A DNA stretch of 64,000 nt, from positions 11,602,118 through 11,666,117 of the forward strand of contig NC_089324.1 of the NCBI RefSeq assembly GCF_036669915.1, given 5' to 3'. The position numbers were made by a program, and so were the translations under genes. This document shows positions 52,001 to 62,986 of this stretch, one piece after another. This DNA is from Pocillopora verrucosa (Eukaryota > Cnidaria > Anthozoa > Scleractinia > Pocilloporidae). How positions within the stretch are numbered: the stretch's first letter is position 1; every line of letters begins with the position of its first letter. A model generated the notes under the pieces. It had not been told where the DNA came from and searched no databases. It worked only from the letters and a program-made list of their open reading frames with translations.

Positions 52001-53890
52001 CCTTCATGCACAAATGGCCAAGAACTCGAAGAGGAGGATGCATTGTTAGTGCATGATATTTTGTCCACTGAAATTGATGCTGACATGCTTTACCATGAAA
52101 GGATGGGAACAGAACTAACTCATCAAGTATGGAATCTTAATGATGAAGATATTGAAACAGATTTTCCAACTATTACAGGACAGCTTCCTTCAGTCAATGT
52201 CAATCCTACTCAAGAATTACGAGAGAGTATGAATAGCATTATTCGTTGGATTTTACTTTTCTTGTGCTCTTCCTTTTGTGTAATTTCAGATAATGCTCGA
52301 GAAATTCTTCTAGAATTTTTAGGAGCTGTTTTTGACAGTTTAGCAACAGTCATTGCAGCATCATTCCCAAAATCCCTGCATTTATTAAAAAAAACAATTT
52401 GAAATCGATCAGGATGAATTCATGAAGTAAGTTGTGTGTCCAAAGTGTGGCACTTTGTACAACTTTGATGACTGTTATCACATTGCACATTGCATCACAG
52501 GAAGAGAGTTTTTGTTGAATTTCTCAATCATCGCCAGCATGTTCGCAGACCTGGGTGTGGCGAGCCACTTCTACGAGAAGTCGCATTGAAAAGTGGCCAG
52601 ATAAGACTTTATCCTTTCAAAGTCTACTGCTATCAGAGTGTTATAGGCACTCTGAAACGCTTCCTTCAGAGACCTGGGTTTACAATGAAATGTAAATTGT
52701 GGAGAGAAAGAGGTATACCAGATGGATTCCTTGCAGATGTTTTTGATGGCCGTGTTTGGAAGGAGTGGCAGTATGTGGATGGTGAAGCTTTTTTAGCAGT
52801 TCCTAGGAACTATGCGTTCATGCTCAACGTGGACTGGTTTCAACCATTTAAGCATTCTTTGTATAGTGTTGGTGCTCTCTATATGGTCCTGATGAACCTA
52901 CCACGATCGGAAAGGTTCAAGCCTGAAAATGTTTTATTAGTGGACATAATTCATGGTCCACATGAGCCAAAGCTAACTATCAATTCTTACCTGGAACCCC
53001 TTGTTGCTAAGCTAAACCTGTTGTGGAAAGATGGCATCACAGAGAGGGGCCATGGAGCTTTGACTGGTGAAGTCTACCATGCTGCTCTCCTCTGTGTTCG
53101 TTGTGATGTACCAGCTGCAAGGAAAGTGTGTGGTTTTACAGGGCTTGCATCGTGCAAAGGCTGTTCAAAATGCACAAGATATTTCCCTGGCTCAGTGACA
53201 AGCAAAATTGATTTTTCAGAATTTGACTCACCTTCACCTCCATAAACTAACCATAAACACAGAGAAGAGGCACAAGAGATTTTGAACCAAACAAGCGCTG
53301 GAGACCGGGTATCACTGGAACAGAAGTATGGGTGAACTGATGTTACTACCCTACTTTGATTGTGTGCGATTCCATATAATAGACCCCATGCACAACCTAT
53401 TTACAGGCACTGCTAAACATTTAATGAAGAACATTTGGTTGGACGGTGACAATCCATTGCTCAAAAAGAATGATTTATGTGTCATTCAAGAAAAGTTGGA
53501 CAAAATTAAAGCACCATCAGACATTGGTAGAATGCTAAGGAAAATTGTGAGCAGCTATGGGGGTTTTACTGCCGATCAGTGGAAGACTTTTACAACACTT
53601 TTCTCTATTTATGCATTATATGCCATTTTACCAAAACCAGACTATGGCGACAATTTGTGTTAGCATGTTCTATTATTTATTCTCCAGTGATTACTGAAGC
53701 AAGAGCCTTGCTTGCTCATTCTTTTTTACTTGATTTCTGTCAAGGACTTGAACAATTATATGGCAAACACCGTGTGACTCCTAACATGCATCTGCAAACA
53801 TCTCTTTGACTGCATCCTGGACTATGGCCCGGTCTATTAATTTTGGCTCTTCAGTTTTGAACGATATCATGGTATTATAGGAGAGTATGC
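52001..53890 (+). pseudogene. Decayed En/Spm (CACTA)-type transposase
   Basis: Fragments in at least four frame segments. 52043-52402 carries an N-terminal region ending SFPKSLHLLKK. About 52430-52490 has VVCPKCGTLYNFDDC, a zinc-knuckle-like piece. 52490-53245 has RPGCGEPLL, LYPFKVYCYQSVIGTLKRFL, then MLNVDWFQPFKHSLYSVGAL, ENVLLVDIIHGPHEPKLTIN and CDVPAARKVCGFTG. 53328-53663 has LPYFDCVRFHIIDPMHNLFT and SYGGFTADQWK. The next frame gives SIIYSPVITEARALL, then KHRVTPNMH, and after another shift LFDCILDYGPVY followed by a stop and FWLFSFERYHG. The order matches Transposase_21-type proteins common in cnidarians. Stops and shifts make it non-functional. Confidence 0.75.
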
Positions 53891-55333: not shown

Positions 55334-58300
55334 TTCATGTGATACAGTCTGTCATTCAATGGGGGAGGAACCCTGTCGTGGTGGTTAAACGACAAGATGA
55401 CAATGTCAAAAGAAGCAACCCCCAGAACCCAAAGGAAGAATCGAAATCGTCAACTAAAAGGAAATCACGTCAAGATACAAAAGAGGATAGAGCGCTTGTG
55501 AAGAAACTTAAAGAAGATAATGCGATAGCTGTGCGAACCGATCGTCAACAGAGTGAGCTACGTGCGCTAAATGCAGGTACAGTATATTATATTTTAATAT
55601 AAAAATAGCTTCGGCAAATATTTCAGTATAAGCGAAGAAAACGGCCAGAACTCTATAAAAGTACAAACCTGTCTTTGATCAAGGATTTGGGGATTTCCTG
55701 TAATTATTTATTTTCACATGGCTGAATTTCTCGTAGCAGTCAAATATGAGGCTTTTATAGCATTCCATGTAAAAGGAAAATTCTGCGTTCGAGTTCTGTT
55801 CCCACCATACGTATGCTTATGTCAGATTTCTTAGCATGAAGGAACTACTAGGATTTTCTCGTTCATCTCAGAGTTACCCTCAGCATCTAATTCGCCGGGT
55901 GGAAAGAGCCAATGTCGTATCTAAAAACAAAGCACGTCGACTAATAACCAAGGCGGGGGGTCTGGAACTTGAACCACTAAATTTGTTGTACATGTACACA
56001 GCGCACTGGTTTTTGTGATGCATCCAAGACCGGTTTAACAGGTTCCGTGTTCATATTGAGCTGAGCGCGCGAACGATTAAAAAAAAAAATCATGGAACAT
56101 CGTTAGATAAATTTCTTATTAGACATTTTTGTGCGGTATTGCTGTACATTTGTTCTCGTCATTTTTATTTTCACTTACCCTTCGGGCTGGCCAAAATACT
56201 GCAAGACTCTTAGAAATATACGGCGATACTACACACTAAAATGTGTTCAAGATATATATCGTTGTGTTTTCATTTTAGCCCGTTTTAACAAAAATGTCTT
56301 ACAGCTGAATGTAAAAAAGCATATTGGAGTTATGCACATATAATTATATTAAAAAGGCCAGTAATTCCTTCTGTATTTTTCTTATAATTTGTTTCAGAGC
56401 TTGAGAAACTTGAAGGTTCGACAGCCATCAATGAGGCAAAAATCAAATGCGGTCTTTGCTGCAAGTCGTACTCCGTTCAACTTGACAGAAAGACGGCAGG
56501 AAAAATATCACTCTTCAAAGCAAGTAAGTATTTTTGTGACAACGACAGTATTTGCGCTTTGCTAAATAATCGCTTTTAATTTACCTTTAAGAACTTTTAT
56601 TATAAATTTAATAACGTCCTTTAATCAGGTTATAGTGTCAGAATTTCCACGTGATCCGACTTCAATGAGGTAACACCATACACGGTGTCCCACTCAGCAA
56701 TCCTGTAAAACAACGGATATTTATTTTAAATTGTTACTTTTATATTGAAGTTTAAAAGTTTAGTTGTATGTACGCATGTGTTTGAAAACTTTCTTTTTCT
56801 TTTATTGTTATAGCCCACTTCAATGCATGTAAAAAAAAGAGGAGAGCCGGAGTTAAGGGAGTAAAAACGTTAGAGAACTTCTTTACCAAAGAAGCTGCAA
56901 AATGTTTACCTGAACCTACAGGCTCTATTCTGACCGTACCAAATGACGATGAACAGGATCAATATGACGGCGCGGACGCAATTGTTTCTGAGAAGTAATG
57001 TCGCTATTCTATGACTTTTGTTACAGTGTACGTTAGTTTATGTCACAGTCGTTTGTTTATTTCCTGGATGTGATTGCTTATTGCTACACTTACGAACTGT
57101 TCAGAGAAGGGCGAATAAGCTAGGTTTGGTAAACCTTGATAGTTTTTGATTTTCGACTAGACGACGTATTACAGCGAATAGTTTTTAATTAAATGTGAAA
57201 TGTCTAGGAAATAAAAGTCAATCTATTTACCAGATGCCCTCAAGAGTTCAATGCAACGTGTTCTTTTATACAGTGCTATATAATAAGTTGACCATGAACC
57301 TGCGAAGATTAACAACTTGATCAGTCAACAAATCAGTTTCGTAACGCAGCAGATGGCCACCAGGATACATTGACTAAGAAACTACTTCAAGAAAATTTTA
57401 GGACCTAGGCGACCTGGTGTTTTTCATTTACAGTGAAAGTGATGACTTTGATATCGGTAGTCTATGGTGGCCGAGAACTGCCAATAGAAAAATCCGCATT
57501 TTTGAAAGAAAATTGTTTTCTTTTTTATTTTGATTTACATTTTTTTTTATTTTTCAATTTATTTTTTTATTTTTAAAATAGAGTGAAAGTAAAATCAATT
57601 GAAATAAAAATAAAATAAAATAAAACCAAAGTAAAATAAAATAAAACCAAAGTAAAATAAAATAAAACCAAAGTAAAATAAAATGAAATTATTCGACCCA
57701 GCCGAGAGCTGCCACTACCAGCATGCATTGCGTGCGTTACTGTCACACGCTCGAGTTCATCATGGCCGATGCATGGAAGAGGCTCAATGAAAAAGTTAAA
57801 GCAAAGCGTACCAAAAAAAACCAGCCCAAGGACCATCGAAGGAAAGATGAACTGACAGTTCAACGTTTGTCAGCAGAAGTTTCTGGAAAGGCCCAAAAGT
57901 ATACAAGGATTGGGCCAAGAGAGTTTGTTCCCTTCGACGAAACGGAGGAATTGACCATTGGTAATATCAAGAGCGCTTGTGAGAGGCATTTTCTACAAAA
58001 AATCGGAAAGAATCTCGTATGTGATATCTTAGCAGGAGAACAGGGCCCATCGTGCAAGACTCTTGCCCAAATACCGGACTTAAAGGTTGTATACGTCCGC
58101 TTCATTCCAGATCCAGCTGATGAAGGCGATGTCAACAGCACCCAGAATTCCACGAGAAAGAGGAAGGACGCAACTGGAGAGTCCTCGACTTATACCGAAT
58201 TTAATCCTCCGCCGTCAAAATCAAGGTCAAGCCCCAGTAAACTTATGCATTCGAGACAGAAATTACCCACACAAGCAGCGGGCACAAAAAGTACGTATTA

Positions 58301-61300
58301 CCCTCGAAGTTTATCAATTTCTGACATGATCAAACTTGGCAAAATCAACACAAATACCGCCACTACTATTGTGAGAATTTTCAGATTCGATATGGAAGTT
58401 TTGTCGTGGTCCAAAGTTCCAACCACTGTCGAGTTCTATGAGGATAAAGAGGCAATCGGAACTGGCGGATTCCGTAAAGCATTCAAAGCAACATCCAAAC
58501 ATCCAGAATTTGTTGCGACAACGTGGGTGATAAAGCACTATCTACCAAGTGCTTTAAAGTGCATCTCGGATACCGGTCAAACTATCGAGCAACACAACCG
58601 CAAGGTTGTTCAGATGCATCTCCTAGCTAGGAATTTTGCTTCGCAACTTGAGGCAGAAATCAAGGAGGAAAGCGAGGTTTTTGGAACTGCATTTAGATAT
58701 AGAAAGATCTTTCATGGAGAAACAGACGAGGGGGAGTATGTTACAGTCGAAGAATTTATCCCTGGCCAGTTTAAGAAGTACGTAAACAACACTGGCCAAA
58801 CCTGTGTCGATCCTACAGATGAGATGGCCCAGAAGGCAGAGTGTTTGACACACTTCACGTATGAGAGATCAAAGAAAAAACTTATGCTAGTTGACATCCA
58901 GGGAAGTGGATATGACTTATTTGACCCAGAAATAGCTTCTACAGATTTACTGGACGAGGGTGACAAGCAATACCTGTATTGTACTGGAAATCTTTCCAAA
59001 GTAGCAATTTCAACATTTGTGAAAGAGCACACTTGTAGTTTGTTCTGTAACTTGCTTGGCCTACCAGCAATAGAAAATTAAGGGGCAACTCAAGCTGCTA
59101 TAAAATTGTGAACATTGAGACATTGTTGACAAAATTTGATACACTGTTTACAAAATAGATAGTTCACATAAAATCCCATGGTTACATATGATAATTTACG
59201 GGGCAGTCATAATTTGTTTCCAGGGGTGGGCTGCAGGATTGTGATATTAACCAACCTTGTTGTTGCTGAATTCACCCTCAAGCAGATATGTTTTCATGTA
59301 CCCCAATTTAGGACACCAAAAAACCTGCTCTTGTTAATGTTTCTCCTCAACCCACCATGTGAGGATTGATGGTTAAAATTTGTATTATTTGTATTAGTTG
59401 GGTGCATAGTTTTTCTTGTTTCTGCTGCCCTTTCGATGTTACTGTTATTGCCATCAGTGTTATTGTTCGTTCCAGTTTATTTCCACAAAGGTTATGGATA
59501 TCATGTTCAGATACATTATCATTCGAATTAAAGATAGTTGTGGGTCCCTTAATCTGCAATATTATTATGCATTAAAAATAATTAAATAACTACAGTGGTG
59601 ATAATTACACTGTTTATTTCTTTTTTTTCTATTAGTGCCAGCATTGATTGTTAATATGTTGTTCCTGTTCACTTCAATTACACGTAATAAAGTTTTGACT
59701 TTTCTACTGTATTGCATGTTACACCTCTTTTGATGCAATTACCTTGGGCGGTTCGCACATACAGTGTTCAGAAATGTTCAGTTTAATTCAATGATTAAAG
59801 TACAGTTCATTGGCAGATGAATTTGTTGTTTATGGCTGCACAAAGTTCATAGTAACAAAATGGAGGATGTGGGAGAAAACATGCTGCTTTCACTATAAAA
59901 ATAGAGTCAAGGGCATAACACCATGGATAAACAGTGGAGTTATTACAAAGAAAAATTTCTCTTTAGGAAAAGAAATGCTTCCTTGCAATCAGCAGGTTTC
60001 AAATGGTCAGTGTCAATGATTCGTTCACACTCTGCTCTGAACTCAGGGGCGAGAAAGTCATCATCAACAGTAAGGATGCCTGACTGGACAGCAGCTTCTT
60101 TTAGTTGATCATCAGTTACTTGAAGACCTGCACATTGCCAATAGAAAACAATGTTAGCATTCATCATCTAGTGTGACTGGCAGTGTCAGCACCACATTAG
60201 GTTTTTATAGATATGCGACTTTCAGGCCCAAAGATTTTAGCAACAAATAATTTCCTTCTGGGCAATAAAATTATGCCTTGAAATTTCTACAAATAAATTA
60301 TCATTGGTTGATTGTTGAAGCATTATAACTATGCCATAGTTCGGTTTGAATAAAACAGAAATATCCCAAAACCAGTTTTGACAAAACCTTATAATTTTTT
60401 TACCGCATTCTTCAAGCCCATATTTCTGAGGAAAACTGTAAATATGGTTTGGGACCCCATCTGGTAAAACTGTGTCCTTCTGGGCTCTGATCCTGTGGGA
60501 ATTCCACACAATCTCCTTGAATGTATCTAGCTCTCTCTGAACCACAGGAACCATAATAAAAGAAAGAAGCTTCCTATGTAGGAAAACAAAATAAGCAAAG
60601 GTAACAAACACCTTGGTGTATAGGTAGTTTCAATTACAATATATAAGCCAGCAAGTTTTTTTTTTTTTTTTTTTGGGTGGGGGGGGGGTTCCCTAACAAA
60701 AATTTTTCCTGGGCCCCCTCAACCATATCTATTTGACTCGAGTATATATAAGCTTTAGGGGGAGGGGATGTGTTATTGCATTCACACAGAAATTAATTAA
60801 TTTGCTATAAAAAATGTATGTATATTAACTTTAGGCAAAATAATGTTTATGTTGATTGAGCTTTCAATCACCCACGTGCCATGCCCTAGCAAAACTGCAA
60901 CATATTCTAAAACAATAACTCAATGTCACTTTTGGAGTTTAAAAACAAACCTTGAAATGAATAGCCTGTGTATGTGTGCGTGTGGGTGGAGGTGGAGGGG
61001 GGAGACTTGCCCATTCTCACCTGTCAATATCATCATGTGGGTCATAATGCCCTTGATCTTTAAGCCATCTTAACTGACTTTTGAAAAATTTTTCCATTCT
61101 TTCGTGTAATTCTTTCCACCATCTTTCGATCTAGAGGAAAACGTTTTTTTAAATGACATTTTGTGAAATGTGCATTTGCCGGAAATCAGATGATAGGGTG
61201 GATTAAAATATTACTTGTTACTGAGGGAATGATGAAATAACAAACAACAATAATACTTTTCCTGGCACTCAAATAAAGTCACCGAAAGACTCGTTGACTA

Positions 61301-62986
61301 ATTTGGCACACTCACATAATATAATTAGACAGCACTTGAGAGATGAGCTTACTTACTTGGTTTGAAGTTGATGGACCATACAGGATCCACAACGTCAGTG
61401 TGATGTCTACGAAGAAAGGCATGAATTGTGGCCATGGTGCCTGTTTCTGTACCTTTGTCGATTCTGATCATCGCAGGAATTACCTTGGTCTCCATTATAT
61501 GCTCCAAGTACCAACGACCAATCAATTGCGGGTCACAGTTCTTATTCCAAACTCGCAACCATAGCAGCTTTCTGCTGGCTGTATCTAAGCAGCCATAAAT
61601 AGCAATCGGAAATGTGGAATTTTGGAAACCCATTAATTTATCATGACCGTCCAGGGAGTGGACCCAGTTTGGTCCTTTCGAAGAGAAGTTTCCTTTCTTT
61701 CGCCTTGCCTTCTTAGCTCCAACGCCTCCGCGAGTAGCAAGTCCATCGGGGTCAAGATCAGACATCACATCGTAAACTTGATCTCGCGTAACTAACAAGT
61801 CATATTTTTGTCTTATTTTCTTGTGCATGCTTCTATATCCCAATAGCTTTCCTGGTCCTTCCAATTCCTTTTTAACAGCCTCTTTAACATCTTCAACCGA
61901 AACAGTGTCATCCCTGTAATAAACTTCGAAATGGCGTAAACGTCTGTCGAGTGTTCGGATACTCCAGGCGTATTGAGGAAAGTCTCTCCGTAAAAAATCG
62001 ATCGCTTCTTCGCGTTTGAGGCCTTGTTTGACATACTTCTGCAGTGCACCTTTAAGGAGATCGTCTTCTTTCCACGATGAAACCCTGCTATCCGCCATTT
62101 TCGAGAACAGCCCGGGAGAACAGTCCCTATATTCCCGCCATTTTGGATCTTTACGATGCACGCAATGCATGCTGGTAGTGGCAGCTCTCGGCTGGGTCGA
62201 ATAATTTCATTTTATTTTACTTTGGTTTTATTTTATTTTACTTTGGTTTTTTTTTATTTTACTTTGGTTTTATTTTATTTTACTTTGGTTTTATTTTATT
62301 TTATTTTACTTTGGTTTTATTTTATTTTACTTTGGTTTTATTTTATTTTATTTTTATTTCAATTGATTTTACTTTCACTCTATTTTAAAAATAAAAAAAT
62401 AAATTGAAAAATAAAAAAAAATGTAAATCAAAATAAAAAAGAAAACAATTTTCTTTCAAAAATGCGGATTTTTCTATTGGCAGTTCTCGGCCACCATAGA
62501 GCGCGGATTGCGAGGGCAAGATGAGATTATATTTTCCTAACATGTGTTTGCGAAGAGAGGATATGATGAATGGTGTAAATGTTTGTTTTTGGCGAGTGTT
62601 TATGAATAAGAGATATGATGAAACGTGTAATTTTTTGTTTTTAGAGGGACAGTTATACGAATGCTGCAGTCCTGGGAGCGCGGATTGCGAGGGTAAGATG
62701 AGATTATATTTTCCTAACATGTGTTTGCGAAGAGAGGATATGATGAATGGTGTAAATGTTTGTTTTTGGCGAGTGTTTATGAATAAGAGATATGATGAAA
62801 CGTGTAATTTTTTGTTTTTAGAGGGACAGTTATACGAATGCTGCAGTCCTGTGTTTGCGAAGAGAGGATATGATGAATGTTGTAAATGTTTGTTTTTTTG
62901 AAGAAGCGGACGATGAAGGTACAAGTACAGTGATCGTCATACCGCAAGACAGAGCAATGCCATGTTTGCTCTTTAAGACCAAAGAG
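55334..62986 (+). CDS. Unrecognised lysine-rich gene with C2HC-like motif, interrupted by transposon
   Basis: Exons: 55334-55576 (phase 1 to 1), 56398-56523 (1 to 1), 56814-56994 (1 to 2), 57434-57461 then the 5 kb element then 62500-62515, 62645-62692 (1 to 1), 62904-62986. A possible first exon begins at ATG 55142 with a weak donor at 55190. Text includes IQWGRNPVVVVKRQDDN, a Lys/Ser-rich linker, EAKIKCGLCCKSYSV, KATHFNACKKKRR (a C-x2-C ... H-x3-C pattern) and KTLENFFTKEAAK, then acidic segments ESDDFDIGS|SADCEG and ECCSPGSADCEG. KTLENFF resembles a PCNA-interacting box without its first Gln. A nuclear role is plausible but unproven. Removing the element leaves an in-frame exon. The left acceptor (catttacag) is good; the right donor is the rarer gcaaga. 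Confidence 0.5.
57461..57735 (+). repeat. Left terminal inverted repeat
   Basis: 275 bp, inverse of 62159-62500. From the outer end: a unique 35 bp, an A/T block, gagtgaaagtaaaatcaatt, then three copies of a roughly 20 bp taaaaccaaagtaaaataaa unit, then gaaattattcgacccagccg, gagagctgccactaccagca and tgcattgcgtgc. Confidence 0.9.
57762..59081 (+). CDS. Alpha-kinase (atypical Ser/Thr kinase), transposon-borne
   Basis: 439 residues, intronless, intact. I chose ATG 57762 (MADAWKRL, atcATGG context); an ATG at 57723 lies inside the terminal repeat. Residues 1-30 are Lys/Arg-rich. About 45-115 is a small domain (FVPFDETEELTIGNIKSACE ... CDILAGEQGPSCKTLAQIP ... VVYVRFIP). A Ser/Pro-rich linker follows to about 190. 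The alpha-kinase domain then shows G233-TGGFR, K258 in WVIKHY, VTVEEFIPGQFKKYVNNTG, LTHFTYERSKKKLMLVDIQG with D378 and Q380, LYCTGNLS, and the zinc-binding tail H423, C425, C429 in KEHTCSLFCNLLGL. All expected catalytic and zinc residues of the eEF2K/TRPM7/MHCK family appear present. These kinases phosphorylate Ser/Thr, often in helices. A cargo role for the element is inferred. Confidence 0.9.
   Translation: MADAWKRLNEKVKAKRTKKNQPKDHRRKDELTVQRLSAEVSGKAQKYTRIGPREFVPFDETEELTIGNIKSACERHFLQKIGKNLVCDILAGEQGPSCKTLAQIPDLKVVYVRFIPDPADEGDVNSTQNSTRKRKDATGESSTYTEFNPPPSKSRSSPSKLMHSRQKLPTQAAGTKSTYYPRSLSISDMIKLGKINTNTATTIVRIFRFDMEVLSWSKVPTTVEFYEDKEAIGTGGFRKAFKATSKHPEFVATTWVIKHYLPSALKCISDTGQTIEQHNRKVVQMHLLARNFASQLEAEIKEESEVFGTAFRYRKIFHGETDEGEYVTVEEFIPGQFKKYVNNTGQTCVDPTDEMAQKAECLTHFTYERSKKKLMLVDIQGSGYDLFDPEIASTDLLDEGDKQYLYCTGNLSKVAISTFVKEHTCSLFCNLLGLPAIEN
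59082..59942. other. Untranslated centre of the transposon
   Basis: AT-rich spacer between the two convergent genes. aataaa-like signals occur (for example aataaagtttt at about 59687). The ORFs at 59178-59575 lack domain text. It probably holds both 3' UTRs. Confidence 0.45.
59943..62098 (-). CDS. DDE integrase-like transposase, four exons
   Basis: Exons: 61357-62098, 61021-61130, 60404-60573, 59943-60127; about 400 residues. ATG 62098 starts MADSRVSSWKEDDLLKGALQ. Residues 10-60 look helical (DNA-binding). The catalytic core has D150 in WVHSLDGHDK, AIYGCLDTASRKLLWLRVWN, then D214 in IRIDKGTET. Exon 2 supplies IERWWKELHERMEKFF with the likely third acidic residue. Exon 3 has VPVVQRELDTFKEIVWNSHR and GVPNHIYSFPQKYG. 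Exon 4 ends ADCKEAFLFLKRNFSL. It is an rve/DDE-fold recombinase. Exons 2-4 agree in phase, but exon 1 ends in phase 1 and exon 2 appears to start in phase 0, so this copy may have a one-base defect or my border may be wrong. Confidence 0.75.
60657..60690. repeat. T-run followed by G-run
   Basis: About 22 T then gggtgggggggggg, inside a transposase intron. It is a typical site for assembly or sequencing error. Confidence 0.8.
62159..62500 (-). repeat. Right terminal inverted repeat
   Basis: 342 bp, inverse of the left repeat but longer because the ctttggttttattttattt unit occurs about six times instead of three. The outer end is cagttctcggccaccataga. The two arms are otherwise nearly identical, which suggests recent activity or gene conversion. 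Confidence 0.9.
62499..62851 (+). repeat. Tandem 178 bp duplication containing a host exon
   Basis: gagcgcggattgcgaggg begins at 62499 and 62677. Each unit then has an intron with aagatgagattatattttcc and gcgaagagaggatatgatga, then acceptor tgtttttag and the exon start agggacagttatacgaatgc. That exon start recurs at 62645 and 62822; the last copy loses its 3' part after gcagtcct. A full exon (48 nt, EGQLYECCSPGSADCEG) is at 62645-62692. The first unit has donor gcaaga, the second gtaaga. Splicing 62692 to 62904 keeps the frame. Confidence 0.85.

Follow-up and report, generated by a model that had tools for sequence, protein, structure and literature searches.

Organization of the element

The window analyzed here is a 64,000-nucleotide stretch of the Pocillopora verrucosa genome (contig NC_089324.1, positions 11,602,118–11,666,117). 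Within it, the region 57463–62498 was shown to be a DNA transposon whose long inverted repeats enclose two genes placed tail to tail, one for an alpha-kinase and the other, with four exons, for a DDE transposase (Table 1). The first-pass annotation had described long and nearly identical inverted repeats around a kinase and a transposase, and this was confirmed: both genes lie between arms of 229 nt (57461–57689 and 62272–62500) that are 97% complementary, and a further inner inverted match of 150 nt (95%) overlaps these arms. The span 57461–62500 proposed for the element held as a whole but not to the base, as this span includes two bases of flanking sequence at either extremity and the true ends read TATGG..CCATA at 57463 and 62498. 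The terminal inverted repeats are 273 and 341 bp in length, their outer 229 nt being the complementary arms, and they thus exceed the 30 bp given for the rust set of IS3EU transposons; the TA..TA termini likewise agree with the TAYGG..CCRTA ends of IS3EU elements from rust fungi.

Table 1. Features of the transposon and its borders (positions in the window).
Feature	Position	Strand	Remarks
Left flanking 6-mer GTAGTC	57457..57462	.	Three further host-repeat copies retain the site uninterrupted
Left terminal inverted repeat	57463..57735	+	Starts TATGG; contains direct repeats, AT-rich and ca. 21 bp long
Alpha-kinase gene	57762..59081	+	Single exon, 439 aa, intact; Pfam Alpha_kinase, E 1.4e-32
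Coding region of N-terminal domain (residues 29–116)	57846..58109	+	Conserved; without convincing Pfam or PDB relative
Coding region of Pfam Alpha_kinase domain (residues 234–429)	58461..59048	+	Pfam match and alignment
Transposase exon 4	59943..60127	-	C-terminus and stop
Transposase exon 3	60404..60573	-	Inner border moved one base in to fall before GT
Transposase exon 2	61021..61130	-	Begins IERWW; holds third catalytic residue (Glu)
Transposase exon 1	61357..62098	-	Two catalytic Asp; frame broken in the window copy; Pfam rva_4, E 7.5e-6
14-bp deletion junction	61380..61381	-	Shifts the transposase frame ahead of the Glu exon; absent from the other three of the four copies reaching this point
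Right terminal inverted repeat	62158..62498	-	Ends CCATA
Right flanking 6-mer GAGCGC	62499..62504	.	Differs from the left 6-mer; no duplicate

Since both genes start less than 60 bp from the inner edges of the mirror-image repeats (26 and 59 bp), these repeats probably serve as matching promoters, by which the two proteins would be made together. The motif GCCGAGARCTGCCA is present four times in the element (57470, 57701, 62179, and 62478), each inverted repeat having one in its outer and one in its inner part, and these four motifs are possibly candidate paired binding sites of the transposase.

The transposase gene

All four transposase exons were found to have GT/AG borders. The relatives P0173 and P0135 also match rva_4, in agreement with the integrase-like DDE transposase of IS3EU elements. 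Residues D150, D214, and E253 of P0173 were taken by us to be the catalytic residues, with 38 residues separating D214 from E253. Among the best 120 of 927 transposase relatives, D150 was present in 117 and D214 in 116. In the E253 column the commonest letter was S (35 of 115); E253 lies in exon 2, and most of the listed sequences appear to continue into the intron at this point.

The first-pass annotation had listed a DDE transposase, and the rva_4 match and the four spliced exons show the gene to be real, but it is not intact in the window copy owing to the 14-bp deletion. The window copy is therefore not autonomous, as it cannot make a whole transposase. In the other three full copies exon 1 is broken differently, by a 10-bp insertion on contig C1 and by stop codons on C5 and C14, so no autonomous copy was seen in this genome. 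An open exon-1 protein with 97% identity (P0121) is present in public records.

Copies in the genome and insertion sites

A search of the genome (353 Mb, 52 contigs) showed four copies that contain both genes and both ends, located on C13 (the window), C1, C5, and C14, the last of these with a nested insertion. Thus, the question whether copies repeatedly hold both genes was answered positively. A copy on C7 is truncated on the right, and its single surviving end reads TTTGG. These five copies showed pairwise DNA identities of 98.63–99.5% where aligned. Besides, three internal-deletion copies (two on C13 and one on C12) share one structure of about 1.3 kb that includes both ends and the part encoding residues 1–207 of the kinase protein; one of them carries a further insertion. 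Among the 14 ends of the seven two-ended copies, 12 read TATGG/CCATA, and one end each of the C1 and C14 copies reads CCAAA. Short copies with both ends occur at two distinct sites, which shows mobilisation in trans. Two short derivatives (L015:2096-3362 and L014:2078-3381) were found to contain an open frame of about 300 codons encoding the N-terminal domain of the kinase protein without the kinase domain; one idea is that such a product might repress the full element.

Perfect 6-bp target duplications, as in IS3EU elements, flank six of the seven two-ended copies (C5 GCGTAG, C1 GATCTG, C14 CACCTT, C12 CACGTC, and GTGCTC for two C13 copies). As the two GTGCTC copies have identical flanks and look like one insertion that was duplicated later, this corresponds to five of six distinct sites.

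The exception is the window copy, which has no target-site duplication; neither this lack nor the broken transposase frame had been mentioned in the first-pass annotation. Its left flank is a host repeat (left part at window 55461–57462) that recurs at four other places, C13:11670268 (98%), C7:13954468, C11:7780738, and C11:7271237. Three of these were cut out and serve as empty sites, and all three continue uninterrupted from GTAGTC into CATCAGC. The right flank of the window copy showed no match to the three empty sites. Because each end of the element is exact and yet the flanks mismatch, the simplest account is recombination between two inserted copies, by which the window copy probably arose; a rearrangement or a misassembly at its right end is a possible alternative account of the mismatched flanks. 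The right flank (62499–62897) contains a 177-bp tandem duplication (99%) with a third partial copy, and the rest of the genome gave no more than two matches to it, both partial (74–77%). Upstream of the element, an ORF of 251 aa at 52490–53245 matches Pfam Transposase_21 (family tnp2; E 4.3e-18) and probably belongs to another transposon.

The alpha-kinase and its relatives

The kinase described in the first-pass annotation as a 439-residue alpha-kinase with all of its motifs present stood up to closer comparison: the ORF is open, and the motifs G235-G-F-R, K258, D378-I-Q-G, and H423-x-C-x3-C are present in the window copy. An in-frame ATG upstream at 57723 would lengthen the protein to 452 aa. 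An alignment of 74 members was made from the window kinase and 73 of the best 120 of 289 relatives, which were picked for coverage, so that it favours intact proteins. Within this alignment 12 of the 17 active-site and zinc positions checked were invariant (G235, E330, K339, N342, H364, D378, Q380, G381, D388, P389, H423, and C425), whereas K258 and C429 were kept in 73, F237 and R238 in 72, and G236 in 63 of the 74 members. Hence 16 of the 17 positions were kept in at least 72 members. The roles of these residues (ATP-site Lys, catalytic Asp, and zinc tail) are presumably those of the TRPM7 and MHCK A structures. The best solved relative was 1ia9, a transient receptor potential-related protein (E 1.6e-17), which we take to be the TRPM7 kinase. 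Having the PF02816 match, the ATP-site Lys, the catalytic Asp residues, and the HxCx3C zinc tail in its sequence, the window kinase is assigned to the same family as the TRPM7-type, ALPK, MHCK, and eEF2K alpha-kinases. It differs from these in being encoded by a transposon and in having an N-terminal domain of its own, and no channel or other known domain was found in it.

The N-terminal domain (residues 29–116) was more conserved than the kinase region (residues 223–434), with 38% compared to 25% of columns reaching at least 90% identity. When the 74 members were scanned against Pfam at E 0.1, no family apart from Alpha_kinase matched more than three of them. A search with 14 cut-out N-terminal domains and a PDB profile search gave best E-values of 0.13 and 0.09, respectively, and all of these matches were taken as chance. 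In the genome, matches to this domain were found in the element's own copies, in transposase-linked loci, and at C12:11757784, where there is no transposase match within 10 kb.

Named relatives of the window kinase and transposase are mostly from anthozoans, with a hemichordate and a tunicate in addition. A viral or bacterial source of kinases of this type was rejected on a single scan of viral contigs and a single scan of prokaryote contigs, neither of which gave a relative.

The kinase frame is open in the window, C1, and C5 copies, and it contains two stops in C14 and one in C7. Changes among the young copies comprised 18 nonsynonymous (three of them stops) and three synonymous ones, with the locally rearranged codons 19–28 of C5 excluded, and no sign of purifying selection on the kinase was seen among the young copies in this genome. 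Estimates for five relic pairs, too noisy to carry weight, gave dN/dS values of 0.43–0.85 for the kinase and 0.37–0.96 for the transposase. Copies in this genome seem to decay after insertion, without visible selection. Domestication of the window kinase by the host was rejected, as the copies gave no selection signal.

Association of kinase and transposase

The kinase search of the genome gave 30 matches, which were reduced to 23 places by merging seven that were fragments of loci already counted; the transposase search gave 75 matches, all of which were used. A transposase match was present within 10 kb of 11 of the 23 kinase places, compared to 0.1 expected. At the kinase on C3, transposase exons 3 and 4 were found to adjoin in a second search with a full-length relative, which brings the linked loci to 12. 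These are the four near-identical copies and eight divergent loci, and in all 12 the two genes are convergent. The other 11 kinase places comprise four element copies without a matched transposase (C7, C13 twice, and C12), one ALPK1-like match on C8, and six places without a transposase match within 10 kb. Most of the 75 transposase matches, and the more distant rva_4 matches, have no kinase match beside them. At two divergent loci, L033:938-1478 (C2) and L049:125-574 (C1), transposase residues up to 124 abut kinase residues up to 388, and this junction is predicted to be an internal deletion shared within another family.

Pairwise distances of kinases and transposases were correlated across 14 lineages (74 pairs; r 0.77, Mantel p 0.0002). 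The lineages were the eight divergent loci of the genome, represented by pieces, the window kinase with P0121 as a stand-in for its transposase, and five protein pairs from the database. These five pairs, drawn from the best 120 of 289 kinases and the best 120 of 927 transposases, were joined by longest contigs of equal size rather than by seen adjacency, with 0.004 coincidences expected for contigs over 10 kb. Kinase distances among the paired divergent loci reach 0.8.

Because the active-site residues are kept, the N-terminal domain is conserved, and the divergences of kinase and transposase correlate, the kinase gene appears to be a conserved second component of the element rather than stray cargo. 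Sequence comparison thus indicates that the kinase gene has travelled with the transposon for a very long time. The kinase had initially been viewed as a rare and odd cargo; the 12 convergent linked loci and the correlated distances instead identify it as a conserved partner gene. They also bear on chance nesting of the kinase between the repeats, the case that the first-pass annotation had itself named against its reading; this is refuted by the four copies that possess the two genes along with both termini, and by the uniformly convergent layout, and we regard it as next to impossible.

Comparison with known elements

From its ends, target duplications, and transposase, the window element is assigned to the IS3EU kind. 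IS3EU/GingerRoot elements have been described with TA..TA ends, usually 6-bp duplications, and an integrase-like DDE transposase (Kojima, 2023; PMC10045372); the window element shares these characters, and the text of that description does not mention a kinase. For a set from rust fungi, target duplications of 6 bp, termini of the form TAYGG..CCRTA, and inverted repeats exceeding 30 bp were reported, and all TET-carrying IS3EU families were reported to hold the TET gene between a transposase and an alpha-kinase in opposite orientations (Kojima, 2025; PMC12730594). Compared by description only, the window element has in common with these elements of rust fungi and Tuber the duplications, the end motifs, the repeat length, and a transposase opposite an alpha-kinase. 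It differs from them in the kingdom of its host and in the region between the two genes, which holds TET/JBP there and none here, as the ORF list of the window contains no ORF of at least 80 aa within 59082–59942. KolobokP, with a homing endonuclease, and other fungal superfamilies with TET/JBP reportedly carry a second enzyme gene likewise, but superfamily and enzyme differ.

The novelty implied by the first-pass annotation for a transposon with a kinase was accordingly not upheld in kind, as fungal IS3EU elements have been reported with an alpha-kinase opposite the transposase. In searches of an open-licence literature library no report of a pairing of alpha-kinase and transposase in an animal was found, nor reports on transposon-encoded kinases in general. 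What appears to be new here is that the two genes have stayed paired over long times in an animal and that the kinase protein has its own N-terminal domain, along with a likely origin for cnidarian "TRPM6-like" kinases.

Possible function of the kinase

Taken together, the results are best explained by a cut-and-paste transposon of the IS3EU type with an alpha-kinase as a regular second gene that serves the element, and we consider this explanation probable. The DDE transposase would cut at the TA..TA ends and insert with a 6-bp stagger. Most likely, the kinase would act on behalf of the element, its substrate being the transposase or else a protein of chromatin or silencing on which the N-terminal domain docks, and this phosphorylation may license transposition or expression of the element. 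A role in transposition or its control is suggested tentatively, falling somewhat short of an even case, and a role in counter-silencing is put a step lower.

According to the latter proposal, made by analogy, the kinase would phosphorylate host proteins of chromatin or small-RNA silencing and keep the element expressed, a role like that of TET in fungal transposons. It is consistent with the reported position of the TET genes beside the alpha-kinase in the fungal IS3EU elements that carry them, and with reports that the TRPM6 and TRPM7 kinases are cleaved, enter the nucleus, and phosphorylate histones (PMC13143021), TRPM7 being the closest solved relative. A direct effect on the transposase would, however, be equally possible, and we regard this form of counter-defence as conceivable but on the unlikely side. 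That a host alpha-kinase gene was trapped between transposon ends and does not serve the element would agree with the lack of purifying selection among the young copies and with the movement of non-autonomous copies without the kinase domain. Such passive transport is nevertheless improbable, since the pair recurs in divergent loci with the same convergent layout and kinase distances up to 0.8, the kinase and transposase distances correlate, the active-site residues are preserved, as is the N-terminal domain, and the same pair is reported in fungal IS3EU elements. Even less probable, and in our view very much so, is that the window kinase was taken over as a signalling gene of the host with loss of the transposase. 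An intact kinase beside a broken transposase in the window, C1, and C5 copies would fit this, but the copies are 98.6–99.5% identical with differences that show no sign of selection, and in C14 and C7 the kinase frame, too, is interrupted.

Alpha-kinase families and their annotation

The PF02816 search of the genome gave at least 21 matches, with exons counted apart: five from element copies, seven from divergent relatives that were also matched by the kinase query, and nine on C8 (five) and C6 (four). One C8 match was closest to ALPK1 among solved chains, and one C6 match was weak and closest to a putative kinase (4kuj). The proposal that a mobile kinase may explain the expansion of coral alpha-kinases was thus supported in this genome, where 12 of the 21 matches, counts that are lower bounds, are the element kinase or its relatives.

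Some cnidarian proteins named "TRPM6-like" were reported to consist of a kinase domain only and to be wrongly named (2026 TRPM study, PMC13143021). Set apart from the list of that study, proteins of Dendronephthya, Paramuricea, and Saccoglossus with the name "TRPM6-like" were shown to be relatives of the window kinase. The alpha-kinase family, absent in Microbotryomycetes, was reported to be highly expanded in rust genomes, for which two columns of a table give 79 and 39 (PMC4469406). The family also appears in a table of a wheat rust comparison (PMC5295586), and the 46 proteins of wheat stem rust for which diversifying selection was reported include one alpha-kinase (PMC4150398). Because of the report on fungal IS3EU elements, many alpha-kinases of rusts and cnidarians may be transposon genes, and by analogy IS3EU elements may account for many rust alpha-kinases and cnidarian "TRPM6-like" proteins. 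In its broadest form, the interpretation would be that one IS3EU lineage common to animals and fungi has had from its origin, as an almost obligatory second gene, an alpha-kinase with an N-terminal domain of its own. Such a phosphorylation system run by transposons would have been taken in error for host genes in cnidarians, in a hemichordate, and in rust fungi; for this we see the case as about evenly balanced.

The long-lasting movement of kinase and transposase together suggests that phosphorylation from within the element controls transposition or its silencing. For genome annotation, stray "alpha-kinase" genes of corals and rust fungi may trace to such transposons.
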